Source of the DNA: Allomyces macrogynus ATCC 38327
Lineage: Eukaryota > Blastocladiomycota > Blastocladiomycetes > Blastocladiales > Blastocladiaceae
DNA length: 64,000 nucleotides
Direction: 5' to 3'
Assembly: GCA_000151295.1 (NCBI GenBank)
Contig: GG745328.1
Coordinates: 798,503 to 862,502 of the forward strand
Shown here: piece by piece, positions 4,212-38,766 of the stretch
Layout of the letters: every line of letters begins with the position of its first letter
Numbering within the stretch: the first letter of the stretch is position 1
Notes under the pieces: model-generated
What the model was told of the DNA's origin: nothing
Databases searched by the model: none
The model's input: the letters and a program-made list of their open reading frames with translations, nothing else
Program-made: the position numbers and the translations under genes

Positions 4212-4740
4212 ATGCGCACCTCGATCCTGATCCATGTCGTTCTGACCATGCTCTCCACGCTCGCCATGTTCTCAACTATGAACTATTCCGCGCTCGCGTC
4301 TCCGGTTCCCGACAGCGCCGATATATTCGACGCCACCAACACGGGCCGCGTTGAGGGTCATGCTTTCGGTGGGCGTTGATGCTGCCCCGGGCACTGATAA
4401 ATATTGGTTCGCATTTGATTCGCTCGCTGAATTGATCCATCTGACTTGGCGCGCCCTCCCCATTGGTCAGCAATGGTGTCCATGCTGATGCATCGCGCAC
4501 ATGCATGGCAGAGGCGACCAGCGTCACTGCACGCAGTGCTATCTGTGGCAGCGTCAGCTCTGGAGGTGCAAGGGCAAACCGTGCGCGAAACAGGGCAATA
4601 AGCTCCGCTGCCACGAGTGCGTGCGGAAGGGTACGGGACGGCCGCCGCAGAGGTGTGACAGAGGTCGTGGTTTCTGGTCGCTATGCCGTGCTGCCGATGC
4701 TCAAGGTCGGCTAGGAATTGGTGGTGGAGGTGATGTTTGA
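4212..4740 (+). pseudogene. Secreted cysteine-rich family, copy A (frameshifted)
   Basis: Exon 1 from ATG 4212 encodes a signal peptide (MRTSILIHVVLTMLSTLAMF) and the family's ALASPVPD mature start, then hits a TGA at about 4377-4379. The expected spacer continues in another frame as VGVDAAPGTDKYW, so there is a one-base frameshift just before it. The family's Cys-Trp has become Tyr-Trp. A donor-like GTTCGC at 4407 and acceptors near 4511 frame an intron of about 105 nt. Joining at 4511 would turn the Trp codon into TGA. Exon 2 keeps the cysteine pattern: HCTQCYLWQRQLWRC, then C-x7-C-x2-C and a terminal C. This is probably a recent pseudogene; an assembly error is the alternative. Confidence 0.65.
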
Positions 4741-5345
4741 TGCCGTTTCGCCATGAAGGCGATGAGAAAATTAATATGATTGTCCTCAATATCTTGTTGC
4801 TTCCATTCCATCCCAAACGTGAGTATTTCCTCGTTTCAAAATCTGCAGCATGGCTTACAATTTTGTGAGCCGCCATAGCATAGGGTATGCATACTCGTGC
4901 ATCAGGAGCCTGTTAGCGCTCCTTCAAGCATGCTCTTGCCTCGTTCACCCCAAGCAGGTCGTGCATGGCGATTGCCACGGCTGTGCAGGAGTACGGCCGC
5001 GATGCATGAACACTCACACACCCTCCACATATTCGTGGGTCGCGCCCGTCAATTTGTCGTGCATGCACGACGCGACATTGCCATGCGGACCATGCCTCAG
5101 GGAATCTGTCGCCCTCAGAAGGAGCGGGCTCGCCATTTTGAATCGGTGGAGCTGCGCCGTGTTGATCAACCACCTTCAGCATGCCCCCCACCGTTTTGTC
5201 GACCTGGCCAGCTGGCCCATATAAATTTGGGGCCTGGACACGCAGGGAATCTTTCTCTCCAAGTCACGACCCAACTGTTGGGCACGTCGACACGCACCGC
5301 CTGCCCTCGACTTTGGACTGACCACTGTTCCGGATCTCCACGACG
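4741..5345. other. Intergenic between cysteine-rich copies A and B
   Basis: No gene seen apart from short random frames. The right part holds the TATA-like element of copy B. Confidence 0.5.
5220..5225 (+). promoter_or_regulatory. TATA-box-like element
   Basis: TATAAA in CCATATAAATTTGG, about 125 bp upstream of the ATG at 5346 of cysteine-rich copy B. Confidence 0.5.
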
Positions 5346-5740
5346 ATGGCGCGAACCATGACTCTAATCCATGCCCATCTCGCCGCACTCGCCGTGCTCG
5401 CCGTCATCTCGACCACCGCGGCGCGTGCTCGCTTTTCCGGTCCCTGATGACGTTGGCGTTGCCCGCAGCGTCAACTGTGATGATCAATGGCCAGAGCGTT
5501 GGTTCGGGTCGGTTCATTTGCACCTGACTCGCCCACGACTTGACGCTCTCAGCACGGCACGTCTGTGCAGATGCTCACCATGGTTCTGCTTTCCGTGTCG
5601 AAGGTATAACCGTTATGATCAACGTGTGTGCAGCACGTGTTACACGAAGGAGAACCGGCGCAGGTGCAAGTTGATCCCGTGCAAGAAGATCCGCGGTCAT
5701 TAGGGTCGTCTGTGTTGCGACGAGTGCGATTGCATGGACC
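5346..5740 (+). pseudogene. Secreted cysteine-rich family, copy B (frameshift and nonsense)
   Basis: ATG 5346 opens a hydrophobic signal sequence (MARTMTLIHAHLAALAVLAV). The frame stops at once, and the expected mature start continues in another frame as VLAFPVPDD, so there is a frameshift at the signal/mature junction. After a degraded spacer and intron, exon 2 begins at about 5609 as YNRYDQRVCSTCYTKENRRRC. It keeps C-x4-C, then meets an in-frame TAG at about 5701-5703, beyond which GRLCCDECDC continues the family pattern. The lesions are independent of those in copy A. Confidence 0.6.
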
Positions 5741-6836
5741 CGCACGGACCCGTGACAATCCAATCCGACCTTTGGCGATGCGTCAACATTGGTGAAGTGT
5801 TTAGCGGAAACGACAAGAGGTTTTCCGGCCTGGAATGGCGTGTAATTCATGCCAATGGAGAGCATACAACTTGCGAGGACAGGCTGTCGGAAATCATGCG
5901 ATTTGCAGTATTAAACCATGCAGTTGGAATGAGTCATGGCCAAAATTCCAATGAGCGCGGCCAAACCGTCGAGCAAATAAAATGTCTTGACATCCAAGAG
6001 ACTCGGGGCATGCAGCACAACGACGCAGTTCAATAGCCGATCTGCCCACGATCGCGTGGCAGCGTGTCACCGAGACCCTTGTCCCCAATGATTCGCAATT
6101 TGGGAGCGCCCGACCTCGTCCATCCAGCATGCTGTTGCGCGCATACGAGCTCCGCCGTCAACATCCACCCTGCACCACTGCACTTTCAGCTCGCGCATTG
6201 ATCCAGGTAGGGCCGCAATCCACTCGCTGTCCGTGAGACCCGAAGCGTCAATGGAAGCGGCACTGGCACCATCGTCAAGTCGCTCGTGATTTGGCAGCAT
6301 CAGGGTGACAACCGCGACAGCATGTCAGCATGAAGTGCTGAAAGCGAGAATCGCTGCAAATAAAGTCGGACTCGTCCCATACAGACGTGGTCGGTCGCAC
6401 CAAGTTCAGGAGCCACCAGCTGCTGCACGATGTGGTCAACACAGGCATCAGGCCACATGGAAAAACAGCGCCGAGGAAACGAGTTGGCGCTGGCAATGCG
6501 CGCTCAATCAACAGCAATAAAACGCCGCAAGTCGGCCAGTCCACAACGCCGACTTCAAAATGAGCAGTTTGCGACGATCGAGCAGTGCAGGGGTCACTAG
6601 GCTAGGCTGTCGTCTGGGACAGCGGGAGCGGTTGGGTGCACAGCATCATGAGCGGGTTGGCCCGCTCCCCAATAGCACCCCATGCTGATGCATCCCGTCT
6701 TGCACGAGCATCCCGGTCCATTGATGATGAGACCTCGACGCTCAAGATGTTTGATCCCACCTGTCTCCAAAGAAAAATACAATACTCAAGTTTTCCCTCA
6801 GTGTTAGTCCCGCCAGTCGCTCTGGGTCCTCTTCGT
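5741..6836. other. Gene-free stretch (1.1 kb)
   Basis: No conserved protein, splice-consistent gene, repeat or RNA gene recognised. The right end is the 3' flank of the IFT139 gene. Confidence 0.45.
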
Positions 6837-9800
6837 TCACGGTCGCAGCATGCCGCGCGCGCGGACCAGCACGTCGCGATGCATATGCACGAGCATCGGT
6901 GCTCCGCTCGCATCCGCGGCCGCCGTCGGCGGCGCCTTACCTCCCTCGGCCACGAGAAGCGGGACCGTAATGGCTGGGTCGTCCCCGACCTCGACTGCGC
7001 CGGCACCGACCAAATCGAGCACACGGCGCGCGACGCGAATTGCCTCGGTGGGCCGTCCCGCACGAACCGCGAGTACTGCCAAATGCGCACCGAGTGTTGC
7101 GCGCGATCTGCCCTCAGCGAGCCACGCACGACGCAGGTGCGCGAGCGCCATTGCCGGCTGAGTCTGCCGATCGGCAATCGCTGCGCGCAGCGCCCACGCA
7201 CACCACGCGCCGCGTCCGCCGTCGCCCGGGTAAAAATTGAGCGTTGATTTTACGAGCGCCTCGGCAGCGTCGAGTTTGGCAGCATCGAGGTAGATCTGCG
7301 CGAGGACGAGCCATGCGGTCTCGAGGTGCAGCGCGTCCTCGAGCACCCACTCGCGCGCGGCGAGTTTCTTGAGGTACGGCTTGGCCTTGCCGGGCTGCGA
7401 AATGAGCAATTGGCCAATGCCGCGAGCGAGTTGCACGGCAGGCAGGTCGTCGGGGAGGTTGCTGTTGGTGAGCATGTCGAGCCCGTGCTCAATGTCGGCG
7501 CGCTTGCGCGAACCAAAGTACGTGTAGGCTTCCCAGACTTTGCGTTCGGGCAACGTCGCAGGCAGCTCCTACACAAGGAAAGATTGGTGAGGTTTGAGCG
7601 CGTAACAGAGGAGACGGTGCCCAGAATGATGTCAACCTCCAGGACGCGAATGGCCGCCGTGACCACAGCCGGATCCACTTGCGATCCGAGCGCCGTCACG
7701 TCCGGAAACACCATGAGCTCCAGCACCTGGTTCGCGGATCTCGCGCGCCAGTACGCGTCGCCGCGGCACTTTTTGAACTCGCGGACTGCATCCTTGATGT
7801 TGTTGTTGTTCCTAAAGAGTTGTTGCGTTATTCATGAGGAAAAATCAAACATAGCGGCAAGAAAGCGAGGCCAACGTACTTGTGGTACAACCCGAGGCAA
7901 AAGTGATACCCTTCACTGCGCCTGGCACCTTCGCGCGAACCTGAGGGCACCGTCGACACCGTCGGCGCCTGCTTGACCTCCTTCTCCTTCTCCGGCAAAT
8001 CGAGCTCGATGCGCGCCTCATCAATCCTCCCAACCCGGTGCAGCAAATCAATCGTCTGCGCGAGCACCGCATACCGGTCGCGATCAGCACGTTTCCCACC
8101 ATCCGTCTTCTGCCGCATCTGCGCCAAAATCTGCTTCTGGAACCCGACCGCTTGATCAAACTGGCGCCGCTGGATCAGGACCTGCGCCATGAGCCGTGCA
8201 CCCTCGCCGTGATTTGCGTCCACCTTGAGCAGCTCCGCACACAATGCGTGCGCCTTGGCCAGCGCATCAGCCTTGCCGTCGCCCGTCGGCGCGACCGCTT
8301 GCACGTAATGCTGCGCGAGCGCCAAGAGCACGGTCGTGTTGGCCGGCTGCAACTCGCGCGCCTGCACGAGCAATGCCTCGATCTGCGCGCCCACATCGGC
8401 ACCCGGCGCAGCCCCACCCTCACGCACAATCTCGGCCATTTGCAGACATACGGCCGCCTGTACCGTCGGCTGTCGCGCGGCCGCCGTGCGCACACGACGC
8501 AAAATGTCCATGGCCTTAATCGCGCTCCCGCCCTGCCTGTACACCTGTGCAAGCACTTCCAGAAGCGGCAAGTCCGCCGCGGTCGCCTGCGCGGCACTCG
8601 GTGCATTCGCCTTGACCCGCTCTAGGTGCGCGACCGCCGTGGCTTCGGCCTTGTCGAGGTGCCCGAGCTTCAAGTGCAGCGCCGCGAGCGCCACGACTTG
8701 GTCGAGAATCGCGTCCGCCGCGCGCGTGCCCGCCGCGAGGGCGGCGTCGACACTGTCCTGCAGGTACTCGAGCGCGCGCGCGTACTCGTGGTTGCGTACG
8801 AGGACCGCTGCAACTTTGCGCGTGAGTTGTGCGGCCATGGCTTCGCGCGCGGGTGCCGCGGTGGCCGTGTCCGAGTCAGAATTCCCGCCGGGAAGATAGC
8901 ATAGTGCCGAGGTCAGGGCGTCGACGGCGCGGTCAACGTCGCCGCGTGCCAGGTACGCGTCGGCGAGGGCAAGCTGTGCGGGGAGGGAGCCGGGTTGCAG
9001 GTCGACGAGTGCTGCGCAGACGCGGATCGCGGCGCGGTGGTCGTGTCGGACGGCACGGTGCACGTGGGCCTGTGCGCGCGTCGAGATGACCGTGAGCGCC
9101 GGCTCGGTCGACGCCGCATCGCGGAACAGCGTCAGTGCGCGGTCGACGTGCGTGGCCGCGCGCTTTTCGCCAACGAGGAGCAAGTGCGCTTCGAGCAGCA
9201 TCAGCTCGCCCTGGAGCGTCGGGTAAAACGAAACATCGCGCCGCGCCTGGACCATGAGGCCGTCAAGTTCCTTGGCGTTGGTCGTCGTCAGCAGCGTCTC
9301 GATCCAGTACATGAACTGGTCTCGCGGTGCGGCCAGCTTCGGGCGCGTCCCATTGGCCACGGGGGCCAGTGCTTCGCGAGCGCCGTCGAGGTCGCCGCGA
9401 ATACGGAGCGCGCGGACGCGAAGCAAATGGAACTGGTCGCACTTGCGGACATCGAGGTTCACGGCAAGAGCAGCATCGAGGGCTGCAAGCGCATCGGCCG
9501 AACCCTTGGCCGAATCCCATCTTGGACGCGCCGTCTTGCCCGTCAGCGAGGTGACTCCCATGACCAGACTCGGCGGCAGTTCCGTCAGTAGCGCGGTTTC
9601 GCGCAGTCCCGCGATATCGGGCCACGCGCCCGGGTGCGCTGCGAGTTCGGCCATCAAAAACGCTGCGGGTGCGTGCTGCGGAAACCGGTCCATAACGCCG
9701 CGAATTGTCGTCTTGGCCGACTCGACCTGCCCGCCGAGAAACTGCGCCAACGCGAGCAACGTGCCCGTCTCGGGCGACCCGGGATACACTTGAGCAATAA

Positions 9801-11929
9801 ACTCGCCGAGCTCGAGCAGTGCGGCCGCCGGGACGTGACCACCCATGGCCACGACATCGTCCGGCCCACTAGCCGCACCCGCGCCATCATCGGCCTCGTC
9901 CGCCAACGGGCGGGAAGGGCACACGTCGACGAGATCCCGCGCGACTTGGAGGAGCAGCGGAACGTTCAGCGCCGCGAGGTACTGCAATCCGGCGCCCGCG
10001 GCTGCCGCCGCGGCATCAAACGCGCGCTGCACGCAGTCGCGCAAGTGCGCAAACCGCACAGCCGCGTCACGGTGCCGGCGCCACTGAATCGCGGCGGCCA
10101 AGTACGCGGCGAGCGGCGACCGTCCAGAGCTCGACGATACGGGCTGGACGACTTCGAGCAGCTCAAGGTCACGGACGAGGTTGGCTTCGCGGTCGCGCGC
10201 GCCTGCATTGCCCGCAGCCTCGTCGAGTTGAAGGACGGCAAGCTCGGCCTCGAGCGCGCCTTCGAGGGCAGGAACGTGGTGTGAACTGGCGGCGGTCGCG
10301 CGCTGAAACTGGTCGAGTGCGGCCTTGGGCTTGCCCTGCAGCAGCAGCACGCGCGCATACTCGCACAGGTACGCGACATTGGTCGGTGCAAGTGTCGTCA
10401 TGCGCTCGGCCAGGGTCGCAAGGTCGTCGAGGACAGTCGTACCGCGACCACCACGGACCACGGTTGTAGACGTGCCCGACATGGCCGCTGCGGCGGGGGT
10501 GCCAGGGAGCGGGATCCGTGTCAATAGATGCACGACGGACGCAATCAGTGCCGCATTCTCGCCCTCTTCTCGACGCAGCACGGCAAGCAACTGCGTGAGC
10601 CGCTGTGCACCGCGGTCCGCTTGGCCGTCGCGGAGCAAGTCGACGAGCGCCAGGACCGCCAGCGCGTCCACCGTCGGAATCGGGGACTGGACCGCCCCAC
10701 CGGTCCCCGACGGCGACGCACCAGCAAGCGTCAAGATGCGGTGGCACGCGTCGGTGACAGCATCCCACGCGCCCGTCGCGAGCGCACAATGCATGCCCTC
10801 GATCAATGCTGGCACGCACCGCGGCCGCGCGGCCACGAGCGCTGACGCGTGCGCGCGCGCCTGGTCTGGCTGTCGCCGGATTTCCTTGTTCGTAAGAATC
10901 CGGCCAATTAGGGCGCCCGGGTTTTTCGGGTCGACCGCGACCACTTCGTCAAACGGCGAGTCGTCGGGGCTGTCGGCCATGGTTGCGGTGCTGGCCGGTG
11001 GACTGCGGAGCCACTGCGCACCGCTCGCGCCGAACGCATCGGCTGACGAGTTTTGAGTCGCGACCGAGTCCTGGCTCGCGCCCGTGAATGCCTTTGACCC
11101 GCTGACCTGCATCCCGCGCGGAGACCCGCTCGAGCCGACATTCGACCACGAGTCGGACGGCGCGCTGTCGTCGTCGCCGTTGGGGTTGTCGATGAGCGGT
11201 GGAGAAGAACGGAAGAGCTGGAGCCAGCCTTCGGCAAGCGTGATGAGCGTGGCCGCCGAGGCGCCGCCGGGGAATCGTGAGCGCGCGGTGGAGAGCCACT
11301 TGTCGGTCTCGTCGGTTGCGGCGTCGACAATGCCAAGGAAGACGATGTGTATGAAGTAGGCGGTCTCGGTGAGCGAGGAAGACCCTTCGGCCAGTGCCAG
11401 CGTGGCCTCGAGGTCGGAAATGGCATCACGGTCTCGGAAAAGTGCAGCTTTGGGTAAGATTACGGGTGACAACACCCTCGAAATGACTGCGTGGATACAT
11501 ACTGAGAGGTGTGCACCGGGAATGAGCATGGATCAGGGCTGCTGGGCCCGCGGCAGACAGAGCAGGGTCGGAAACCAGCGGCGTCAGCTCACGAACGGCC
11601 TCGTTGAATTTGCCTGGAGAAAGGAGAAGACAAATTCATCAATGAGATTAACATTCTCCTGCTTGACACCTTCAAAAGCGTCGTACCCAGCAGGATGGAG
11701 GCGACGGCGCGCCAAAATCCGAGAACTGGGGCGTCAATGGGACGGGCGCGCCGGAGAGCCACCTCGCAGCGCAGCCTTGCCGTTTGCCAGTACTTGCGGT
11801 GGATCAGGTAGAGGACCTATCGATCATCCGTTGCAGATGGTGGAGGCGTTGAGCGGGACCGAGGCTTGGTGATTGGTTTGCGCGCGAGTCGCCAATGCAG
11901 CACCCACCGTGGCGGTTTCTTCGTGATCC
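6837..11929 (-). CDS. TTC21: Intraflagellar transport protein IFT139 (TTC21 family)
   Basis: A tetratricopeptide-rich subunit of the IFT-A complex, which drives retrograde transport in flagella. Six exons on the minus strand: 11929-11906, 11816-11687, 11613-11503, 11447-7880, 7811-7637 and 7568-6837. Introns are 89, 73, 55, 68 and 68 nt. The total is 4740 nt, 1579 aa, with consistent phases; animal TTC21B is about 1316 aa. Landmarks follow TTC21B from end to end: N-terminal MDHEETATVLYLIHRKYW, YHFCLGLYHK (compare FQYCKGLY), ETAWLVLAQIYLDAAKLDAA (compare EFEKSWLLLADIY), and the end DVLVRARGMLRP (compare DILDKARASLRP). TPR-like helices run throughout; an Asp/Ser-rich insert lies near residues 140-200. 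The gene is head to head with VMP1, 375 bp apart. It is strong evidence for a flagellated stage. Confidence 0.93.
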
Positions 11930-12304
11930 ATGTTGGTTCCCCTGGTCGTTGTCGTGTAGTGCAGCAAGTTGGGTATTCTGGTGCCTGCTTGATTTACCGT
12001 TTCCAGCACCGTCAATTCATTCGCGACGTTCAAGTTGATGGACGGCAGCAAGCGTCTGACGCGGTGATCAGCGGCCGCAACAGAAGTGGCATTTCTGCCA
12101 CGTGTGCATTTCCACCGCACACTCTGACCTCACCGCAATCGTGTTTGGGGCCCACTCACGAACAACAGCAAACAGAACGCAGGGGATTGGCGTGCTGCTG
12201 TTCGCGACAGCTGTCGCCCTCGCCAACAACCAAGACGACGCTCCTCTGCACGCAAATCTTCCAGCTCAACCCGTCGCGCGCATCTTGCTGCAAGCTGCTC
12301 CGTC
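11930..12304. promoter_or_regulatory. Divergent promoter region, IFT139 / VMP1
   Basis: 375 bp between two start codons pointing outward. It must hold both 5' UTRs and promoters. No TATA box or named site is evident. Confidence 0.6.
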
Positions 12305-13913
12305 ATGCCGCGCGTGCCCAAGTCCAGCTCGCCGGCGCGGTCGCGCTCGCGATCCTCGCGCCGCCCCGCTTCCACGACCCAAGAATCCGTCAGTGAGCGC
12401 ACAGGTATCGACACGCCCATTTCCGTGACCGACGAGCTCGACATCGACGGCATTTCCATTTATCGCAGCCCTATTTTGGTTCTGCGTTACTTTGTTGCCG
12501 CGCTCGCTCGCGGTGCCCGCTCTGCCGCTGACGCGGTCGTGGCGAGACGGAACCTCGTCGCCCTGGGCGCTGTCTTCTGTGCTGGACTGTTCGTCGTGGC
12601 GCAGATCGATGGGCCGCACCAGCCGGTACACTTGCGTGCTGAGAGTCTGTGTGTGCTGCACTGTTTGGAGCCAGTCTGATCTCGAACTCCTCGAACCCTT
12701 GATTCTTCGATTTATGAACGCTGTAGTGGGTCCACGCCAGCACGTTTGCGCTCCAGTGGTACGGCTACTGGATCCTGCTCGGCGTTCTCTCGTCGGTCGG
12801 CCTCGGCACGGGCCTGCACACTTTTTTGCTCTTCCTGGGCCCGCATATTGCCCAGGTCACGGCCGCGGCCTACGCTTGCGGCCATGTCGATTTTGACGCT
12901 CAGTCTTGGGAACCGTACGCAGTTCCTGGCCTCGTCTGCGCTCCCGCTCTCCATTCCTGCTTCTCTGACGCTGCCCGAACGCTCCAGGATCAACTGCACG
13001 CCTGTCCCCGCCGGAACTGTCCCCGCTATCACGCTTGCGATCGTAGCGCGCAAGGTCCAGTGGGAAGCGTTTTGCTGGGGCCTCGGCACGGCCATTGGCG
13101 AGCTCCCGCCGTACTTTGTTGCTCGTGCGGCCTACCTCTCTGGCCGCCGCTTGGCCGAGCTCGCCGACGTGGACGCGCTGCTCGACACGCCCACCAAGAC
13201 CCAGTCGTGGTCCGACTGGGCCAAGGTCCAGGTCGCCGCGAGTATGAAAAGGTTCGGGTTTTGGGCCATCTTGGCGTGCGCGTCGGTATGTTTTCTGTCA
13301 TCTTCACAGTACGCTCTCCGTTCGCCGTCATGCTCACCCGTTGAATGGCCAATAGATCCCCAACCCGTTGTTCGACCTGGCCGGCATCGTCTGCGGCTCT
13401 GTCGGCATCCCATTCCGCACTTTCTTTGGCGCGACCATGATCGGCAAGGCCGTTATCAAGACCTCCATCCAGTCGCTCTTTGTCGCGACCCTCTTTTCGG
13501 CCAACGGCCGCGACGCTATCCTTGGTCTCCTCGGCAAAATCGCGCCGGCGCTGCAAGCCCCCGCCGCGCGGTTCCTCGACGCGCAGGTGCGCCGGTACTT
13601 GCGGCAGCCTGGTGATACGGCCGGTGGTGAAATGCCATCGGAGCCGCAGGGCGCGGCCGCGTTTGTTGGCATGGCCTGGAACGGCGTGATTGCGCTCATG
13701 CTCGGGTTCTTTGCCGTGAGTATTGTGGAGAGTGTGGCCAAAGGCGAAATGGAGCGCGTGCTCACGGCCGGTGCGCCCGATGGAGACGTGGTCGGGGCCA
13801 AAGTGGCGGCGGCGCGTGCGGAAGGGAAGGTGGATGCCGTGCCGGCACAAGCAACCAAAGCGACGGGCCGGAGCACGCCGTCGGCGACCAAGCGGCGCCC
13901 ACGACGAGATTAG
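12305..13913 (+). CDS. VMP1: Vacuole membrane protein 1 (VMP1), autophagy/ER scramblase
   Basis: ER multi-pass VTT/DedA-type protein needed for autophagosome formation and lipid scrambling. Exons: 12305-12625, 12727-12914, 12988-13285 and 13356-13913; introns 101, 73 and 70 nt; 454 aa. Signature stretches are [59 protein letters not shown] and [16 protein letters not shown]. All are characteristic of VMP1. The last junction restores [14 protein letters not shown] exactly. The N-terminus is Ser/Arg-rich and the tail after the last helix is Lys/Arg/Ala-rich. Dikarya generally lack VMP1, so its presence fits an early-diverging fungus. Confidence 0.95.
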
Positions 13914-14769: not shown

Positions 14770-15178
14770 ATGGCGCCCTTCACGGCTCTTCTTGTCGCGA
14801 TCCTCGCCACATTTGCCATCCTCACGGCTTTTACACACGTCGCAACCGCGTCGCCCGTACCCGACGACCTAGACTAGTCCAACTTAGGCGACTCAATCGA
14901 GAATTTGGTGGGCGTCGACGCTGCCCCTGGAAAATCTGACAAGTGTTGGGGCGTCGATGGACACGAAATGCTCGCGCAACATCACCAGGCATCTCACGAG
15001 TTCATGGCGCCTCAATGATCGTTTTAGGTACACGCGGAACCAGCGCGCGCATTGCTCGGGCGACTGCGAATACGATCCGACCTACGATGCGACCTGGTGC
15101 AAGACAAAGTGCATGCAGAAATACGACAAGCTGTGGTACGAGATGTGCCGGGATAAGAAGCCCAAGAAGTGCATTTGA
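14770..15178 (+). pseudogene. Secreted cysteine-rich family, copy C (nonsense, donor lost)
   Basis: ATG 14770 encodes the signal MAPFTALLVAILATFAILTA and the conserved ASPVPDD, then an in-frame TAG (14875-14877). Beyond it the same frame continues through NLVGVDAAPGKSDKCW to the family's Cys-Trp. The donor expected right after TG is GGGCGT instead of GTGCGT, so splicing is probably lost. Exon 2, beginning at about 15029 after TTTTAG, is intact: HCSGDCEYDP..TWCKTKCMQKYDKLW..MCRDKKPKKC, ending at TGA 15178. A nonsense mutation plus a dead donor makes this a clear pseudogene. Confidence 0.65.
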
Positions 15179-15889: not shown

Positions 15890-16360
15890 ATGAGACGCTT
15901 CAAGACCCTGCTCCTCGCGCGCCTCGCCTCAATCGCCGTGCTTGCCATTCTTGCAAGCATCGCTCGCCGCGCAAGCACGTCACCGGTGCCTCTCAACCGA
16001 GATGCGGTCTATTTCTATCGCAACTACGGCGACGCAGGCTTGGCGCAAGGTGGCTCGGAGGATGACTCGCTCGGCAGCGCGATTGGACCCGGTGACTGCT
16101 GGTATGGTTCCTCCGTAATTGGATTTCATTGGGACGGTTGAGGTCGACGAGTGCCGATCCACGTGCGAAGACATTGACACGAGGCATTTTTGCTGTTCAG
16201 GTACTCGAGCGATGGGCAACGGCACTGTGGCAACTGTTATGTCAAGCGCGATCGGTCGCAATGGTGCCGGACGGGCCGCTGCACGCAGCGCCACACCGGC
16301 AAGCTGACGTGCTCGGAATGCCCAGCGGGCAGTCCGACCCGCCGGTGCAACAATATCTAG
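15890..16360 (+). CDS. Small secreted cysteine-rich protein, copy D (intact)
   Basis: Two exons, 15890-16101 and 16201-16360; the 99-nt intron is GTATGG..TTCAG. 123 aa. The N-terminus MRRFKTLLLARLASIAVLAI is a signal peptide; the mature part starts near TSPVPLN. An acidic/Gly spacer ends GPGDCW. The intron splits the Trp codon (TG|G, phase 2). Exon 2 then reads YSSDGQRHCGNCYVKRDRSQ followed by WCRTGRC, LTCSECPAG and a final RRC. This gives eight cysteines, probably four disulfides or a metal-binding fold; function unknown. Spacer and signal are most like copies G and I. I know no named family with this architecture. Confidence 0.75.
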
Positions 16361-16775: not shown

Positions 16776-17245
16776 ATGATTTTGCGCTTAACGACTCTCG
16801 TCCTCTTCTTGCTCGCTGCAGCGCTCGCCGTACTTGCGGGCAGGGCGCACACTGTCCTCGCATCACCTGTCGCTCCGAATCACGACGCAGCCAGCAGCGA
16901 CGGCGCTGTTGACGTGGATGGAAGTGACTCGATCGGCATCAGGCTCCCCGCGAAGGTTTGTGCTGGTATATGTGACTCACGCATGCGACCCAGGCGGCAT
17001 CTTATCTCCAACCCGTATCTCGGAACGCTCATAATTAATCTTCTTTGTTCATCAGGTCCTCGAGCATCGAGAGGCGGCACTGCACGAAATGCTACGCTTG
17101 GCTGGACAGACGGACATGGTGCCGGGTTGGTTGCTGCATGCAAGAGGGGCCGCAGCCGTATGATAAGCTTTACTGCACCGAGTGCCCGATCGGCGAGCCG
17201 CCGACGAGTCCGACATGCCGCAAGGTATTTCTCGATCGGCTGTAA
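16776..17245 (+). pseudogene. Secreted cysteine-rich family, copy E (probable single frameshift)
   Basis: ATG 16776 gives the signal MILRLTTLVLFLLAAALAVL and the mature start LASPVAPN. The donor homologous to the other copies is GTATAT at 16966, preceded by GGTTTGTGCTG (Gly-Leu-Cys-Trp). That Trp frame differs from the signal-peptide frame, so one base was gained or lost near 16920-16935. The intron ends ATCAG at 17055. Exon 2 is fully open to TAA 17245: SSSIERRHCTKCYAWLDRR, TWCRVGCC, LYCTECPIGEPP and a last TC. Everything else is intact, so it is either a very young pseudogene or an assembly error. Confidence 0.6.
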
Positions 17246-25288: not shown

Positions 25289-25750
25289 TCAGACCAGATT
25301 ACACCAACCGTGCTGGAGCTGCAGACACTCATCACAGTACTTGCGGTCGCCGCGTTTCTTGCACGAGTTGCCGGGACGTTTGCAAAACTTGAGGCGACCA
25401 GTTTTCATGTAACACGGCGTGCAGTGGCGGGCATTGTCGCGCGAGTACCTGTACCCCCATTCGTGGTCGATTCCGCCCTTGTCAGCGGTGACGCACATGG
25501 GCCAGGGCCCAAGCCAGATCGCCAAGAGACGGGTGTGTCCGCACCAACACTCTGGTGGATCGGCCGCTGCAGTACCGACACCCTCTGCATCTTGATCTGC
25601 GCATACCATGCCGGACTTTTCGGCGGCAGCGTCGTGGCCAGAGGAGACGGGAGCGGCGAGGACGGGATGCGCCATGGGCGCAGAGGCGACGACCATGACG
25701 AGCATCGCAATCACGGCAAACGCGGCGATTCGGGTCGAGGCGTGCGTCAT
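25289..25750 (-). CDS. Small secreted cysteine-rich protein, copy F (intact)
   Basis: Two exons on the minus strand, 25750-25545 and 25448-25289; the 96-nt intron is GTGCGG..TACAG; 121 aa. The signal peptide is MTHASTRIAAFAVIAMLVMV and the mature start LAAPVSSGHD. The spacer ends DPPECW, with the phase-2 intron inside Trp. Exon 2 reads YSRDNARHCTPCYMKTGRLK, FCKRPGNSC, KYCDECLQLQHGWC. The intron is a multiple of three with no stop, so the unspliced frame also stays open. Intron retention would insert a 32-residue loop and still give a full-length protein. A TATATA element lies about 110 bp upstream. Confidence 0.75.
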   Translation of the reverse strand: MTHASTRIAAFAVIAMLVMVVASAPMAHPVLAAPVSSGHDAAAEKSGMVCADQDAEGVGTAAADPPECWCGHTRLLAIWLGPWPMCVTADKGGIDHEWGYRYSRDNARHCTPCYMKTGRLKFCKRPGNSCKKRGDRKYCDECLQLQHGWCNLV

Positions 25751-30199: not shown

Positions 30200-30948
30200 C
30201 AGGACGTGTTTTGGCCGGATTTTAGTTGAAAGTACAGATTGTGATCACTTTGCTCAGGAAACTGATTCTTGTCGAAATTGGCCAGCCAACCAAAGCTGTG
30301 ATTTGGTTAAGCAACACAGAGCGACGTGCAATTTTGGGTCTCGCTAATGTATGCTGACAATACCATTGCGTTTGGTGAAAGAGAAGAGATAAAATACCAC
30401 ACAACGCCAAATCGAGCACCCTCATTTCATCATCGTTCCTCACAGTCACCATTTGTTCATATGTCGCTCCCAACCTGGAAAGGCTCATCTCACGACACAT
30501 CGCTAATGATGAAATAGCGTTGGAGCGACAATAATTTATTCGGATTTTCGGTTCCCTATCGGTGTCAACTGCCTGCCAGCGCCACCCCTGTCTGCGACCG
30601 AATTAGTTTCCAGACTGCCTTCATCCAAGTTGGAACTGTTCGCATCTCTTCTTCTCGGATCCGTCTGTTTGTTGATGGGACACGGAGGGTCAGGTGCGCA
30701 TGGTGTGAGCGAGCAAGACTTTTGACACGGACAAGCCGTGTGTTCGGCCTAGGTCGCCGGTCGCGCCGGGCGGCGTGCCTGACCGCCGGCGTGATCAGAG
30801 CCGCATCAACAAATAAATAGACCTGCACCCAGCGGCCGTACCTTCTCCTTAACCACCTCGCTCGCTCGACCCAGACAACCTCGCTCCGGACGGCCCTGTC
30901 TGTTCCTCTTCCACCCAACAATCTCCAGCGCATTAACAATCCACGAAG
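30200..30948. other. Intergenic upstream of SLP2
   Basis: No gene recognised in 750 bp. An AATAAATAG stretch near 30812-30820 could act as a weak TATA element for SLP2. Confidence 0.4.
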
Positions 30949-32090
30949 ATGCTGCGTCGCACCGCCCTCGCCATTTCCACAGTTCCAGCGAGCCGCACCC
31001 GAATTGCATCCATCGCGGCCCCACACGCCCTCCGCAACCGCGACTTCTCCTCGTCAACGTGCGCGCTCCGCCAGTCGGACTCACTGCCCTGGAACACGGG
31101 CATCAAGTTTGTCCCTCAGCAGCAAGGCTGGTGCGCATCGTTTTTTTCCTGGCATCGCAGCGCTGGTAGATGAGCTCCAGCGCAATCGAGACTGACCATC
31201 GCTCAACTCTCCCGACGCCCAGGGTCATTGAGCGGTTCGGCAAGTTCTCGCGCGCGCTCGAGCCCGGTCTCGCCCTGCTCATTCCGGGCATCGAAAAGAT
31301 TGCCTACGTGCACACGCTCAAGGAAGTCGCCGTGGAAATTACGCCGCAGTCGGCCATCACTCGGGACAATGTTGCGCTCGAGCTTGACGGCGTGCTCTAC
31401 TACCGGATTGTCGACCCCGTCAAAGCGAGTTATGGCGTTGAGAAGCCGCATTTTGCCATCGCACAGCTCGCGCAAACGACGATGCGGTCCGAGATTGGCC
31501 AGCTGACGCTCGACCGCACGCTGGCCGAGCGCGCGTCGCTCAATATCAACATTGTCGAGGCCATTGGTGCCGCGTCGTCGGCGTGGGGTATCGAGTGCCT
31601 GCGGTACGAGGTGCGCAACATTCACCTGCCGTCGTCGGTCATCTCGGCAATGCACTCGCAAGTCTCGGCCGAACGGTCCAAGCGCGCGGCGATTCTCGAG
31701 TCGGAGGGTCAGCGGCAGGCGGCCATCAACGTGGCCGAGGGCCAGAAGAAGTCGCAGATTCTCGCGTCCGAGGCCGACATGCAAACGACCATCAACAAGG
31801 CCGAGGGTGACGCGCAGGCGGTGCGGCTGCACGCGAGTGCGACGGCGGCTGGGATCAGCCAAATTGCATCGGCGATTGCTGCGGGCGCTGGGAATGGCCA
31901 GTCGGGGAACGAGGCCGCTTCGTTGCAGATTGCCGAAAAGTGGGTCGAGGCATGGGGTGGGATCGCCAAAAACGCCGGGTCGGTGGTCGTGGTCCCGTCG
32001 AGCATGGGTGACGCTGCCTCCATGGTCACGCAAGGGCTCTCCATGTTCCAGAGCTTGACAAAGAATGGCGCCGCCAACGCGTCCAAGTAG
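30949..32090 (+). CDS. STOML2: Mitochondrial stomatin-like protein 2 (SPFH/prohibitin family)
   Basis: Inner-membrane scaffold that binds cardiolipin and organises respiratory and protease complexes. Exons 30949-31130 and 31223-32090; intron 92 nt; 349 aa. The N-terminus (MLRRTALAISTVPASRTRIA) is an Arg/Ala-rich mitochondrial presequence. The spliced join gives VPQQQGWVIERFGKFSRALE, as in VPQQEAWVVERMGRF of animal STOML2. The SPFH domain follows: LDGVLYYRIVDPVKASYGVE, AQLAQTTMRSEIGQLTLDRT, ECLRYEVRNIHLPSSV. Then comes the helical Ala/Glu region (RAAILESEGQRQAAINVAEG) and the end GDAASMVTQGLSMFQSLTKN. A partial copy of exon 2 lies upstream at 30.0 kb. Confidence 0.95.
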
Positions 32091-32584
32091 GCCTGGTTGG
32101 CTCACTCGACTTGACACAGAAAAAGAGTGCCTGGGCCAGAACGCGCAACATGAAGTTGACCATGATTGTGTGCAGTAGAGGTGTTGCGTCGGTTGTTGTC
32201 ATGAAATTCGATTCCCATTCCCTTTTCGAATGCTCGTGGCCGGCCATGGCACACTGAAAATTGTAATGTCCGGTCCTGGCGGAGAGTGCAGCAAGAGGCC
32301 TTCCTTGCTGATTTCCGGGAGTATTCTCTTCTCGAGAGTCGATTAGCACCAAACGACGTCGTCGAACGAAAGCTGTCGTGTTGATGTGTTGCTGCCGTCC
32401 TTCAAACTGTGATCAAAAAGTGACGCGGTCACGTGCACAGCTCGCCCCACATCGCTTCTCGCATCCCAGTCGTGAGCGACGTTGACGCCGTCGACCATCC
32501 GTGATCCCACACCCAAATCTGTCTCTGCTGGACCACCAACCGACCGCAAGTTTCCGCAACCAACTCAACAGCTCAAGTAACATC
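32091..32584. other. Intergenic
   Basis: SLP2 3' flank and ZMYND10 promoter; no element recognised. Confidence 0.45.
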
Positions 32585-34435
32585 ATGGCCACCAGAGCCG
32601 CCGAAGATATCCAGCAACTGGCGCCAAATATCATCGAGGATCTGGCGTCTGCTCTCGAACAAGTGCCCATCGACACTTACGGCGACGAACAGTACTTGAA
32701 ACCGCTCACCACGACGATATCCAAGAGAACCCGGCGCTGACCCCGTGGTGACGAATAGATGGGTTGACCAGCACGTTGAGCTCGAGCGGCTCAGCATGCA
32801 GGCCACGCTCAACGTACGCATGGGTGTGGCCGAAACTGTGTCGGATGCGCTCCTCTCGTTCGACAAGGTCGGTATCTGGATGTTCATACTCGTGGATCGA
32901 CAGTGTACGCAAGAGAGTTCCGAGCTCACACTCGTCCAAGATCCGCAGGTCCCAACCTTGATCCACCAACTGCTCGTGGCGCGCACCTGGAAGAGGAACG
33001 TTTACCCGCTCGTGCGCAAGGCCATTGCCAAGAATGCGTCGATTCTCGCGCACGCGATGGTGCGCGGCGCCATTTATTGAGCCAGCCTACAAGTGGTGAC
33101 GGATTGCTGACTTACTTGGTCATTTGCCGCAGATTCAGCACGAGGCCACGCTCCTGAACCTGCTTCAAACCGTTCTCTACAAGAAGGAGTCGATCGACAA
33201 GGCTGGCGACGCGCTGGTCGACTTGATTGACATGCTCGTCACGCACCTGGACTACCTCAACTCGGGCGCGCTCGACGCTGTCAAGAACGCAGCACCGCAA
33301 AAGATCCAGTCCCCGACCGACTTGCTCTCCGTTCCCGAACACGAGGTTCGTCTAATTTGACCCGGATCAAGCTCGTCGCCTCGCTCCCCGCTCACCAACG
33401 CTCGCATGACTAGACGCTGGCTGAGCAAAGCGCCAAACTCGAGTACGAGACGGCCTGGACCGCACTTGCAGCGCTCTGCCACTTGACGCACCACCTGGCG
33501 CAGTTCCCGCTCGCAGTCCTCGCGCGGCTCATCAATACGCGCGATATCCTCCCCTCGCTCGTCTATCTGCTCGAGGGCAAGCCGTGGGAACGCAGGCTCG
33601 CGGGTCGGGCCGGTGTTGAGCGGTTCGAGGACGGCCGGTGGGTCGCACGCACGGGTGAGGACGTGCTCTTGGTCGCGAAGCCCGAGGCGCACGCGTGGAT
33701 GGCCGTGGCCAATTTGGTGCTCGACCCGGAAGTGCAGCGGCGGTACGAGATGACCGAGCACCGGCGCGCGACGTTGATCAAGGTGCGCTTCACAGTCTAT
33801 GTGCTTGTTTGCGGAACCTCTGGCCAGCACTCACCTTCCCCCAACCCTTCCTCCAGTTGACGGCGCACTTCGAGCGCAACACAACTCTCCTCACACAACT
33901 CCCGTTCCTCGAACCCGTCTACCGGTACCTCCTGCACGTGCAAATGGCCGAGGTCCCCGCGGGCGTTGCTGCGACACTTGGCGTACTTGTCGAAGCGATG
34001 CCGCATTTTGCACCGGTTACGCGAGATTGGCCGGCACTTGCGACACGGCAGCTTGCGCTCTGGACCCCGAAAGCGAACCGCAAGTTGGCCGACAAGCTCG
34101 CGCGCGCCTACGACTGGACCTGGCTGGAGGAACTCGCGCCGGAACCGCCTAAGTGTGCAACGTGCGGCCAGAGCGCCGAGCACCGGTGTGCCAAGTGTCG
34201 GTCCGAGTGGTACTGCGGCCGCGCGTGCCAGGTCAAGGCGTGGAAGGCGCACAAGCCGGTGTGCGCGCTGCTCGAGGCGAGCGCGGGCCTGGAGAAGGGT
34301 GGAGCGGGTGGAGCGAGTGGAGCGAAATTGAGCAAGTATCTAAAGGTCGCCGAAGTCGACCAGAAGCAGCCGGCTGTGCGGGCGAGGGGGAGCATGATGA
34401 CGGACGGTGCTCGAATTGTCGAGCTGGTCGACTGA
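32585..34435 (+). CDS. ZMYND10: ZMYND10, axonemal dynein assembly factor (MYND zinc finger)
   Basis: Cytoplasmic factor for pre-assembly of ciliary dynein arms. Six exons: 32585-32691, 32759-32867, 32949-33059, 33133-33345, 33414-33782 and 33857-34435. Introns are 67, 81, 73, 68 and 74 nt; 495 aa, against 440 in human. Spliced landmarks are QWVDQHVELERLSMQATLNV, VPTLIHQLLVARTWKRNVYP, AMIQHEATLLNLLQTVLYKK and HETLAEQSAKLEYETAWTAL. The C-terminal MYND finger (about 402-438) reads CATCGQSAEHRCAKCRSEWY, then CGRACQVKAWKAHKPVC, with all zinc ligands present. The order follows animal ZMYND10 throughout. The second intron (32868-32948) is a multiple of three without a stop, so retention would insert 27 residues. 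Confidence 0.93.
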
Positions 34436-34746
34436 AGTGAGAGGTCGAGCCGGATCAAGTTTTGAGAGGAGACCGGGAACTGGCCGAGGAAGGTGGTACT
34501 CGTTGGATGGCAATGTGCATCTTCACAACTACGTTCAATCATTCATTTGGCCTGTCTTGTGCCGGCTGCCGAGCCTCCTCACCAAACAACACAGCCGCAT
34601 ACCAGCACACTCCAAGGCCTTCAATCCATCAAACAGCACGGCACACTCAAGCGCCCGCTCGCCCACCCGCTCACCCACCCACCCGCCCGTCGAGCCGCTG
34701 GTCGTCCTCCCGACCCTCACACAACACGCCCAGCTGGTCAACCAGC
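34436..34746. other. Short convergent intergenic
   Basis: Contains CA/CCC-rich runs (repeated CACCC and CCCG near 34665-34690) and no gene. Confidence 0.4.
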
Positions 34747-35966
34747 TCACATCGGGTGAGGATATCCCGGAGGCATCGCGTACGCGATCGTTGCGCCCTG
34801 CGGCATAACGTGCATGGGCGCGCCCGCGGCCGGCGCGCCGGGGTACGCGACGTATTGAACAGTCGGTGCGCTCGGGAAATACTGGACCGGCGCTGGCGCG
34901 GGCGTGATGTACTGCAACGGCTGATGCGGCGCGAAACCCGGCGCCGCGTGGTACCCCGGCGGTGCCGCACCGCCCATGATCACCGTGGTTGCGCCCCCCG
35001 GGAAGACGCCGCCGGGCGTGGGAGCGGCGACAACGGGTGCCGTTGCGACAGCAGGCGCAGAAACGACAGCCGGTGCGGGTGCGGGGGCCGGGCTGGCGGT
35101 GGATGCTGTCGCGTCGACTTGCTGCCCGGCAGCGGCTCCGCGCTTGCCCTTTTTGTTCCACTGCTTCTTGGTCGTTGGTGGCGGCGCCGACCCGTCGGTG
35201 CCCGCCGACTGTGTGCGGCGTCGTGCATTGGGTGCAGCGTCGCCGTCGTCGTCGTTCTGGTGGTTGGCTGCGCCTTTGCCCTTGCCCTTGGGCCTGGGCT
35301 TGCCGTTCTTTTTGTTCTGCTGGCTCGGTCTACGAAGAATGCCAAGGTCAAGGTCAAACTTCGGAAGCGCAGGACAAACCTCGGCATGACCACGGCGTAC
35401 AGCCTGTCGTTGACGATCGTGAACTGGATCGGCTGCGGCGGCGCGGGTGGTGCGGGCGGCTGGTCAAAGCCCTTGCGGTAGGCGGCCGACCCCGGGCGTT
35501 CGCGCCATGACTCGCGGTGATCGTTGTAATCGTCCGAGTAGTAGTCGTCGCCGTTGCGACCAAAATTCCTGCCGCCGCCACCACCACCGCGGTGCGACCG
35601 TTCGGGCGGGTAGTCGCGATCGCGGTCGCGCTTTGGGTACGGCGCCGCGCGGTCGCGGTTCGCCTTGTTGTTGGTCGCGGCGGGCGGTGCGTGTGCGCGC
35701 TTCGCGTGCGCCGTGTTGGCATTGGGCGCCTTGGCCTGTTGTTGCGTCTTGGCAGGTGCCGTCTTGGCCGCCTTCTTTATTGCGGCAGCTGCAGCAGCAG
35801 CGGCCGCGGAGCGCTCGGTCGCAATGATGTCGTCTGTTGGCCACACATCACATCAGTGACCGTGGGCGTGGACGAGTGCAAGCCAGCAACGACGCAGAGG
35901 GTACAGACCGAGCGAGAGGCCCAGGCGGGCCTCGGCCTGCGCGGGCGAGTAGTAGGTGTTGGACAT
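34747..35966 (-). CDS. UAP56-binding-motif protein, putative mRNA export adaptor
   Basis: Three exons on the minus strand, 35966-35909, 35833-35380 and 35329-34747; introns 75 and 50 nt; 364 aa. The spliced N-terminus is MSNTYYSPAQAEARLGLSLD, then DIIATERSAAAAAAAAAIKK. LSLDDII matches the UAP56-binding motif of ALYREF, CHTOP and FYTTD1/UIF. The first intron splits it between the two Asp codons. A basic/Gly-rich region follows (DRDRDYPPERSHRGGGGGGR), then PIQFTIVNDRLYAVVMPRPS, which faintly recalls the C-terminal end of UIF. A Lys-rich stretch (KKNGKPRPKGKGKG) and a long Pro/Ala/Gly/Tyr-rich tail end the protein. There is no RRM, unlike Yra1/ALYREF. Function is inferred from the motif alone. 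Confidence 0.65.
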
Positions 35967-36753
35967 GATTGATGGCTGGCGGTTCGGACGGCGTCGACCA
36001 AACGGATGGACCGGGTCTGGCTGGATCTGGAGAGCGACAACAAGGGCGGGCGAAACGGGCGGCTGCCTTGGTCGAATTGCAGCGAGTTACAGACGGATTT
36101 CTTTGGTGCAGCAGCAGTTGGTTGGTGGTGGAGGCGACATCATCGCTTTGACCACTCGAAACTTCGAAAGTGCTCGACGCGATGCAGCATGGTTCACACA
36201 GCCACGTCAAATGCGGCTCAGAACCAACTCCTCGCTTTGATGCTCCTTCGTTCTTTTGGATGGCTGTTGCTCTTTGGTGCTTCGCAATTTCCCTTGACCA
36301 GACGCTCAACAAAACCAGCGCGGCCACGATTACTCCATTAAGAGCGCCACCCATCTGCAAAATGCGGCGATCTCGGCGACGATGATGACGACGCGCGGCA
36401 ATTGTCGATGACAATCCACGCCATTTATGATGTTTTCAAGTTCCGTCATGTCTGAGAAGGGCGGACCGACGGCGGCAGGTGCACTTGTCGCGCCCAACAC
36501 ACTTTGGAGCTGAGCCGATGCCCATATGCTCAACGCTACAGCATGACCGCGCTGCCCATCCACCACGCCGGCCTTTCATGTCCGCTCAATTAAAACGGCA
36601 GGCAGTCTCAATTTTCACTTTCTGCCCGGCGCCCGCTTCTCGCTTAGATTCTCAGTCCACGTTGGATCCGTCGCCGGCGTGCCCTCCCTACCCTCGTCTT
36701 CCACGGACCAGCACGGCGCAACCACGAACCCAGACCTTCTTCCTCGCTTCGAC
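35967..36753. other. Intergenic
   Basis: Contains minus-strand hydrophobic frames (NGVIVAALVLLSVW near 36.3 kb) that I could not build into a gene. It is otherwise the 5' flank of the UBM gene and of cysteine-rich copy G. Confidence 0.35.
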
Positions 36754-36990
36754 CATGGGATGTTGCAAGACCGATCTCGTTATCACGTTCCTCGCCCTGA
36801 TCGCCCTGCCTGCCATTCTCGCAAGCGTTTCACACCGTGCAAGCGCGTCGCCGGGCAAGACGCGGTCAATGCTCATCGGAGCGGCGACAACGGCTCGGCG
36901 CATCATGGTGCAGAAATTGAATCGTCCGATATGAGCGCCTTCAGCGATGCCGCTGCCGCCGCCTCTGATGCTTGCTATCACCTTCTGTCC
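36754..36990 (+). pseudogene. Secreted cysteine-rich family, copy G (exon 1 only, frameshifted)
   Basis: ATG 36754 gives the signal MGCCKTDLVITFLALIALPA and ASVSHRASASP. The expected spacer then continues in the +1 frame: GQDAVNAHRSGDNGSAHHGA, EIESSD. This is close to copy I (GQDAVEVHRSADNGLAYGGA, EIGSFD). The spacer ends SDACYH where copy I has PDMCW and its intron donor, so the Trp codon and donor are lost. I find no exon 2 before the opposite-strand copy H. It is a clear relic of a duplication shared with copy I. Confidence 0.65.
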
Positions 36991-37262
36991 CACTTTGGTC
37001 CAGACTTTTCCCAAACGCTTGATGCTTTTCCCACTTTGAACCTGAAAAGGAGTATTTGTCGCCCTTCAAGCAAGGGCAATCACAGAACAGCGACTGCCGC
37101 TGGCAATCTCTCTGAGTAGCCAACGCTGCATGATCACAATTAATAAATGGATTTCATGCTCTCGTGCTCCATTTTGGCCACGCTGGCCACCACCTCTCAA
37201 CAAGAGCAATACTCGTGCCCGGCCAGGTTCTGCAGAGCACGCAACATCTAGCGACCGCCAAA

Positions 37263-37729
37263 CTAGACCTTGTGGCCGCATCGCCATGGCTTTATCTCAG
37301 GAGCACGGCACTCGGTGCAGTACCGCTTGCCTTCCCACACCTTGCACCGTTTCCTGCACCACACCGATGTGTCCTTTTTCGGGTAGCAGTTTGTGCAGTG
37401 ACGCTGCTTGTCGATCGTGAACCTACGATATGTAGCGCCAGGCCAGCCCGTCGTCATCGTCTGCACGCATGACAACCAGTGCAGCGCGGTCAATTGGATC
37501 TGGCGCAGCAGGAGTCGACGCACCAGCACCCTGGATAATCGGTCGAGTCGAAATCTTCCGACCCATCCATCGTGTCTTCAGCTCCAATCATGATGCCGGC
37601 AGCGCCACGACTGTCAGGCACGGGAGACGCAAGCGCGGTAGTGCACGCCATGATGCTTGCGAGCGCGCCGAGATTGACGAGAGCGGTGAGAACGAGGAGA
37701 ACGAATACGAAGGTGGAAGCGCGCGACAT
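37263..37729 (-). CDS. Small secreted cysteine-rich protein, copy H (intact)
   Basis: Two exons on the minus strand, 37729-37524 and 37422-37263; the 101-nt intron is GTGCGT..TCGTAG; 121 aa. The signal is MSRASTFVFVLLVLTALVNL and the mature start TALASPVPDS. An acidic spacer (EDTMDGSEDFDSTDYPGCW) ends in Cys-Trp, with the phase-2 intron in Trp. Exon 2 reads FTIDKQRHCTNCYPKKDTSV, WCRKRCKVWEGKRYCTEC, ending PWRCGHKV. All eight family cysteines are present. I see no TATA element at the usual distance. Confidence 0.75.
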
Positions 37730-38271
37730 AGGTGATCACGGCAGGCTGGTCCAGGCGGGAGATGCGTGATGGGGGCGCCGTCCGGTCCTTGCAGAAGATG
37801 AGCACAAATGTGTTTCGGAAAAGGGAGTCGGGAGAAGGAGCCGACGCGGCACGCCACCAACGCACACCGAAGTGTGAGTCGGCGCGAGGGATGCCTGCCA
37901 GTGGGTTGTGATGATGTTGGCTGGTTGACACGGATGCGCGAGCGTGCGGTCATGCTCTTCGTGAATCTCGGTTCTGTTTATGGATGCGCGCAGCGTTAAG
38001 ACGATTCCGTGCTTGTGACGACCACTCGTGGAGAGAGATTTGGATGTGTAGGCCAAGAATGCAGTCTCGGCGGACCGAAAGAAGCAACCAAGCGGCGCAG
38101 AGATAACCGACACAATTCATCGAATGATGCACTCAATTATTTCCAATCATTGGCCAACTCAAGAGAGCCAACGCCCATATAGGATCGGAAGGCATGAGCG
38201 ACACCAGATCATGAAGACAAGCGAACCACACAATGTGCAGTACCCGGCCCGACGACACGCGCAACAAACGC
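37730..38271. other. Intergenic between copies H and I
   Basis: No gene recognised; 5' flank of copy H and 3' flank of copy I. Confidence 0.4.
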
Positions 38272-38766
38272 CTAATGGCGCTGGCGCTGGTAGGACGGCA
38301 TGCCCGGGGGGCACTCGCACCGGGCGTGCGGCTTGCGCAGCGGGCATTCAGCACAGTATACACGGTCACGGCGCAGCACGCACTGCTCAGTCCAGCACCA
38401 CTGAGCCCGGTCCAGCAGCTTGGCGGAGCACTCGCCGCAGTGCTGCATGTTGTCGCGCGACCACCTGCACGGCAATGGCCTTGCTGGTCAAGGTCGTGTG
38501 ACACGAATCCCGGATGCCGACGCTCACACTCGTCGCGAAATAAATGGGGAAACGCACCAGCACATGTCGGGCGAGTGAGCATCAAACGATCCAATTTCTG
38601 CACCACCATACGCCAAGCCGTTGTCAGCGCTCCGATGAACCTCGACTGCGTCTTGGCCATTGGGCACCGACGACGCGATCGCACGGCGCACGATGCTTGC
38701 GAGAACGGTCAGTGCGGTGACCAGGACGAGGAACGTGATGGCGAGGACAGTCTTCCAGCGTCCCAT
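38272..38766 (-). CDS. Small secreted cysteine-rich protein, copy I (intact)
   Basis: Two exons on the minus strand, 38766-38558 and 38464-38272; the 93-nt intron is GTGCGT..TGCAG; 133 aa. Signal MGRWKTVLAITFLVLVTALT, then IASSVPNGQDAVEVH. The spacer EIGSFDAHSPDMCW ends in Cys-Trp, with the phase-2 intron in Trp. Exon 2 reads WSRDNMQHCGECSAKLLDRA, QWCWTEQC, YCAECPLRKPHARCEC and a longer tail (PPGMPSYQRQRH). It has one Cys more than the other intact copies. Copy G at 36.8 kb is its decayed sister. Confidence 0.75.

Follow-up and report, generated by a model that had tools for sequence, protein, structure and literature searches.

A family of small two-exon genes, whose products are cysteine-rich and apparently secreted, forms tandem arrays in the genome of Allomyces macrogynus ATCC 38327, a fungus of fresh water and soil. 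The family is large and for the most part lacks annotation. Nine of its loci lie in the stretch of DNA analysed here, 64,000 nucleotides of contig GG745328.1 (C75, positions 798503-862502; hereafter the window). Comparisons within the searched genome (54 Mb, 75 contigs) established the family, its gene structure as read from the DNA, purifying selection on its intact copies and its turnover between two homeologous regions. The encoded proteins would carry a disulfide-bonded domain on a secreted linker, and the function tentatively favoured is the binding of a surface polymer.

Loci in the window and the wider family

The nine loci, labelled A to I, were read in the three frames of their own strand, and GT..AG joins were tried. 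A profile (hmmsearch) built from 14 intact first exons, those of D, F, H and I among them, recognised a family first exon at all nine starts listed in an earlier sequence-only reading of the window, with B the weakest. Eight of these starts fell exactly on an ATG; the ATG of G is at 36755 and not at 36754. The same reading had named D, F, H and I as the intact copies, and these follow one common two-exon model, with the intron splitting the Trp codon of a Cys-Trp pair. Copy D lies on the plus strand, with exon 1 (putative signal peptide, acidic spacer and Cys-Trp) at 15890..16101 (expectation value, E, 1.1e-24 with the exon-1 profile) and exon 2 (cysteine domain with stop) at 16201..16360 (E 8.3e-21 with an exon-2 profile). 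The other three lie on the minus strand, their second exons likewise including the stop: F (exon 1 at 25545..25750, E 2.2e-17; exon 2 at 25289..25448, E 1e-16), H (37524..37729, E 1.3e-19; 37263..37422, E 6e-21) and I (38558..38766, E 3.3e-23; 38272..38464, E 2.4e-20). The donor follows directly after the TG of the Trp codon (GTATGG in D, GTGCGG in F, GTGCGT in H and I), and the acceptor, AG followed by G, is common to all four. The architecture described earlier was also recovered: a hydrophobic N-terminus, a mature start near (A)SPV, a short acidic spacer, Cys-Trp at the exon end and eight cysteines.

The remaining five copies, all on the plus strand, are decayed: exon 1 contains stops or shifts frame, Cys-Trp or the donor is lost, or exon 2 is missing. 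In A the frame is broken ahead of Tyr-Trp (exon 1 at 4212..4374, E 4.3e-7; exon-2 remnant at 4504..4740, E 7.3e-7). An assembly gap of 138 N (3550-3687), followed by a run of C, lies shortly before this copy. B (5346..5444, E 0.0028) ends in Arg-Trp and keeps an exon-2 remnant with stop (5605..5700) that matched weakly (E 0.15). C contains a stop and has no GT donor at its Cys-Trp (14770..14874, E 2.3e-8; exon-2 remnant at 15029..15178, E 1.7, also weak). In E the frame of the ATG differs from that of Cys-Trp (16776..16961, end approximate, E 2.6e-8), with a clear exon 2 at 17057..17245 (E 1.7e-14). G has exon 1 only (36755..36931, end approximate, E 3.7e-6), ending in Cys-Tyr; its exon 2 was not found by the exon-2 profile. 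The Tyr-Trp and Cys-Tyr endings had been noted before, and Arg-Trp in B adds a third. The exon-2 profile was thus clear (E of 7.3e-7 or lower) in six copies, the intact four together with A and E. Cysteine patterns of exon 2 were also counted. A strict one, written from the window sequences themselves, occurred six times in the window, against none across 100 first-order Markov sequences and none in the reversed window; a looser one occurred seven times, where the Markov sequences averaged 0.16 and never exceeded 1. The null was a resample rather than an exact shuffle. A short DNA pattern for HCxxCY showed no genome-wide enrichment (58 matches, against 66 in reversed controls), and 26 of the 58 lay at family loci on contigs C57, C75 and C72 by our own count.

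In five copies the intron contains no stop and keeps the frame: F (96 bases; open from 25292 to 25750), C57_775189, C57_723901, C75_772920 and C57_747263. Because they are open through the intron, its retention is possible there and would yield an unspliced protein with an added segment. Intron lengths differ by amounts not divisible by three in three of five pairs (101/115, 83/93 and 138/166) and are frame-compatible in two (138/138 and 87/99). TATA-like boxes were found within 250 bases upstream of just five of 14 models, so no shared promoter is claimed.

The nine window loci, earlier described as nine in 35 kb, turned out to be part of a larger family. A genome search of the kind that had been suggested raised the count to 41 or more loci, spread over three contigs: the nine, 11 others on C75 (764998 to 1059812), 20 on C57 (673853 to 978965) and one on C72. 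This is our own count. It combines genome searches made with single exons and with patterns and the reading of stretches by profile or model, and some of its entries are remnants or, in a few cases, weak matches such as C57:677426 (exon-1 E 0.052, exon-2 E 0.0098). It is a lower bound, resting beyond the window on about 180 kb from C57, 20 kb from C75 and short stretches from other places. Eighteen loci look intact (four in the window, five elsewhere on C75, eight on C57 and the one on C72), and an additional copy, C75:774744, is intact only if a GC donor is used. Three linker types occur across the family, namely acidic, to which the window copies belong, Gly-Lys repeat and Pro-Thr rich. Identical family proteins are encoded on opposite strands at C75:1008001-1008429 and C75:1059812-1060240, about 51 kb apart; 4,377 bases of the stretch read around the former copy (L019) are N.

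Among predicted proteins, a profile made from the spliced sequences of 14 intact models gave two family matches in 7,985 scored candidates, both from Allomyces: AMAG_17638 of A. macrogynus ATCC 38327 (E 1.1e-33) and GGF31_000624 of A. arbusculus (E 3.7e-30). Both are hypothetical proteins that the profile places in the family, but, unlike the window copies, both belong to the Gly-Lys type. The C-terminal part of AMAG_17638 is identical to the model at C75:777255 in its entirety, and the annotators of that gene, which lies outside the window, therefore used the same splice. A profile without Gly-Lys members missed even these two known proteins, and a region search gave no candidate; since known Allomyces members were not recovered, this is no proof of absence beyond Allomyces. 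The Pro-Thr type had no relative in a scan that covered prokaryotes only. In the parts of the literature available on cysteine-rich, small secreted or antimicrobial proteins of Allomyces and the Blastocladiomycota, none appears to concern the family.

The cysteine domain and its comparison with known families

The intact proteins are 104-160 residues long and contain at least eight cysteines. Secretion was inferred from the N-terminus: in 17 models the maximum 15-mer hydropathy was 2.19-3.24 at the N-terminus and at most 0.76 in the mature chain, which has no hydrophobic segment, and Ala precedes the presumed cleavage point (approximately between AxA and SPV) in 13 of 14 models. In the acidic type the spacer has a charge of -7 to 0 and the domain of +4 to +9; the two are opposite in eight of nine models, the ninth spacer being 0. 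No dibasic site (KR, RR, KK or RK) was found in any of the nine acidic-type spacers ahead of the domain, and the spacer therefore probably stays attached as a linker. Gly-Lys members have GKGGKGG linkers and a Tyr-rich third unit (for example CYYEGGYYYC).

All 14 intact models fit the loop pattern C-x9-C-x2-C-x9/10-C-x3-6-C-x8/9-C-x2-C-x7-10-C, in which the eight conserved cysteines form four C-x7-10-C units separated by 2, 3-6 and 2 residues; C57_772581 and I have extra cysteines. Three residues other than cysteine, a Trp, a His and a Glu, do not vary in the 14 models. Next to the cysteines stand W at the start and H at the end of unit 1 in all 14, Y at the start (12 models) and W at the end (13) of unit 2, and Y at the end of unit 3 (13); by eye, all four units of the Pro-Thr type start C-[WY] and end [HY]-C. 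Four successive units of this form suggest disulfide hairpins rather than a metal site. In shuffles that treated the related proteins as independent, the mutual similarity of units 1-3 was reached by 0, 1 and 3 of 500, and that of the pairs with unit 4 by 147, 145 and 57. As a hint, AlphaFold2 placed short strands at the unit ends with low confidence.

The family had been called undescribed, and no above-threshold match to the cysteine domain was found in Pfam, NCBIfam or PDB. Two members matched the low-complexity Pfam family GRP (best E 1.7e-6), whose cut-off is 30 bits and which was compared by E only. The STIG1-like family (PF04885), which is secreted and cysteine-rich, was rejected: two of 14 members matched (E 0.039 and 0.058; 14.9 and 14.3 bits against a gathering cut-off of 24.1), their cysteines aligning at noise level with profile positions of about 25-84, and two of 10 cysteine-preserving shuffles matched it as well (E 0.11 and 0.16). 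One such shuffle reached E 0.0026 against another family. Searching the genome for STIG1 turned up a single place, on C74 and below threshold, and the family was not seen in the parts read there. Fungal hydrophobins are small secreted proteins of eight cysteines with two CC doublets; the likeness in size, apparent secretion and cysteine number does not extend to the doublets, there being no adjacent cysteine pair in any of the 14 domains (loop length 0). Twin CX9C (CHCH) proteins of mitochondria share the C-x9-C spacing, but have two C-x9-C helices, a longer joining loop and no secretory signal. Here the units are 2-6 residues apart, the N-terminus is hydrophobic and CHCH was not among the Pfam families listed for the 14 members. 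Pro-defensin-like features, an acidic piece joined to a cationic domain, are present in eight of the nine acidic-type models but not in the Gly-Lys type, with a dibasic site in none of the nine.

Fungi carry lineage-specific small secreted cysteine-rich proteins that are clustered and poorly annotated. The Allomyces proteins resemble these in their signal-peptide-like start, length below about 170 residues, many cysteines, clustering and poor annotation, and differ from them in the regular C-x7-10-C units, the intron inside Cys-Trp, the three linker types and selection that is purifying and not diversifying. They are a new family of a familiar kind.

Selection and turnover in two related regions

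The intact copies are under purifying selection, and the constraint on the acidic and Gly-Lys types is looser than on a neighbouring gene, NOP9. Ratios of nonsynonymous to synonymous divergence (dN/dS) were estimated by the Nei-Gojobori method with 95% bootstrap intervals. Pooled over three C57/C75 pairs, the ratio was 0.38 (0.27-0.53) for the mature protein and 0.33 (0.21-0.54) for the cysteine domain, compared with 0.095 for NOP9. These three were drawn from five bootstrapped pairs, of which four were usable, with upper bounds of 0.56-0.81 in the mature region and 0.62-1.02 in the cysteine domain; in the fifth (C57_775189 with H) dS was saturated and the pair uninformative. Among the 16 closest of 91 pairs dN/dS ranged from 0.21 to a top whole-protein value of 1.03, and in several sub-regions dN was about equal to or slightly above dS. 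Positive selection or adaptive divergence was not found in the pairs compared, the pooled values being well below 1. The sequences between cysteines had been thought to vary freely, a view at odds with the pooled cysteine-domain ratio and with the three invariant residues. The most conserved member among those compared is a 12-cysteine gene of the Pro-Thr type, whose pair gave 0.05 (0.00-0.13) for the 12-cysteine domain; its signal and linker together gave 0.48 (0.20-1.20).

Collinearity with C57:744039-798951 extends over positions 1280-63991 of the window, with block identity mostly 76-85% and as low as 66-73% at some family copies. A. macrogynus is named as an example of whole-genome duplication in the available part of a published account (PMC5913265), and the C75 and C57 regions were therefore taken as homeologous. 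Ordinary genes in the shared blocks include TT21, NOP9, Band 7 and EH/SH3, while the family members differ between the regions. H has an intact counterpart at C57:776948 (exon-2 match 80% identical); the counterpart of F, C57:763754, is decayed, and that of B, at C57:747263 in the collinear order, is open with an altered cysteine pattern. G is collinear with C57:772216-772775, A has no match in the corresponding C57 gap, and D and E have their match at C57:715629-716297, which the collinear block does not include (exon 2 of E at 716014). Elsewhere, six genes are found in the same order and on the same strands at C57:722055-730074 and C75:771697-778975, namely Pro-Thr(-), Gly-Lys(-), acidic(+), Pro-Thr(+), Gly-Lys(+) and Pro-Thr(+). 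Of their Pro-Thr genes just the last looked intact in both regions, a fragment at C75:775643 being left out; this is the 12-cysteine relative, at C57:729578-730074 and C75:778468-778975.

Two further repeats were observed on C57. An inverted pair, C57:771451-772590 and C57:777359-778498, is 1,140 bases long with 100% identity and flanks the cluster matching G, H and I; it may be a recent inversion, the result of gene conversion or an artefact of the assembly. A TT21-like (TPR/ARM) gene fragment at 8135-8969 of the window has two C57 copies, 696705-697537 and 749625-750457, which are 98% identical and about 52 kb apart.

Possible functions and significance

The proposed scheme is one of small, apparently secreted proteins cut at approximately AxA/SPV, in which a flexible linker (acidic, Gly-Lys or Pro-Thr) leads to a compact domain of four C-x7-10-C units encoded across the intron. 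The units would be four disulfide-pinned beta-hairpins. More weakly, a linker-borne, mostly cationic domain with aromatics beside several cysteines may bind a surface polymer, for which the organism's own wall or cyst coat, plant debris or a bacterial surface are candidates. Polymer binding is favoured because of these aromatics, the lack of a membrane segment and the use of three linkers on one domain, yet it remains a tentative choice with the antimicrobial and matrix alternatives close behind. Several observations weigh against it. When loop columns were permuted jointly, which respects the relatedness of the proteins, the similarity of unit pairs 1-2, 1-3 and 2-3 was reached by 172, 31 and 54 of 2000 permutations, and unit 4 did not stand out in the repeat tests. 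The units as internal repeats are thus only suggestive, and for this reason confidence was lowered both here and in the new fold considered below. Loss of both unit-4 cysteines at C75:898529 counted for pairing within units, but C75:765916 and C57:978965 have each lost one unit-4 cysteine and kept the other. Fold prediction, which the earlier reading had also suggested, was run but gave two poor AlphaFold2 models (predicted local distance difference test 56; predicted template modelling scores 0.27 and 0.29), and a Foldseek search with the first returned 10 matches, none with E below 2. Cationic character is also not general, the cysteine domain being near-neutral (-2 to +3) in four of five Gly-Lys members.

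The main rival is a set of cationic, cysteine-stabilised antimicrobials in which the acidic spacer would neutralise a domain that inhibits bacteria or competing fungi of water and soil, turnover tracking the changes in their targets. This is a reasonable minority possibility, consistent with the opposed charges of spacer and domain in eight of nine acidic-type models, with small proteins in many copies, many of them dead, and with the sub-regions where dN matches or slightly exceeds dS. The uniform lack of dibasic sites in the acidic spacers argues against it, as do the top whole-protein ratio of 1.03 and pooled values well below 1, the invariant Trp, His and Glu and the near-neutral Gly-Lys domains. 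A structural or adhesive role in the matrix of the zoospore cyst, sporangium or gamete wall, with cross-links at the Tyr and Lys of the Gly-Lys members, would account for the GKGGKGG linkers, the Tyr-rich third unit and the Pro-Thr linker of the third type. Against it, the window members have short acidic spacers with no GKGGKGG-like repeats, and nothing in the analysis links the family genes to a life stage; this alternative was judged rather unlikely. Ligands for recognition or mating, or other signalling peptides exchanged by gametes or zoospores, would likewise be multi-copy, diverged, small and apparently secreted, as these proteins are, but such a role seems improbable. Least likely of all is a secreted or vesicular metal-binding domain, a zinc ribbon or treble clef; a treble-clef-like site had been offered earlier as an alternative to disulfides. 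The CxxC pairs, and the invariant His next to a Cys, are compatible with such a domain, but the profile matches (double zinc ribbon, E 0.16, and dksA/traR C4 finger, E 0.086, each in single members) are subthreshold and at noise level, cysteine-preserving shuffles match other families at similar or better E, and the intact models have a signal-peptide-like start.

A bolder form of the favoured scheme, which we regard as unlikely, is that the domain has a new extracellular fold, in which disulfide hairpins of the form C-[WY]-x6-7-[HYW]-C, their cysteines flanked by aromatic residues, follow one another in a chain. One 12-cysteine Pro-Thr gene, near-unchanged in both regions, would have been copied repeatedly into fast-decaying acidic arrays. 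The Blastocladiomycota are a deep, little-studied branch of the fungi. For a family of at least 41 loci, limited searches among 5.8 billion predicted proteins yielded one annotated protein of A. macrogynus, which suggests that short, spliced, secreted genes are incompletely annotated. The two homeologous regions provide a natural experiment on related arrays, with one gene kept constant amid the birth and death of others. If the proposal of a new fold is true, the repeated copying into acidic arrays would be a way in which Allomyces gains lineage-specific surface-binding or antimicrobial proteins.

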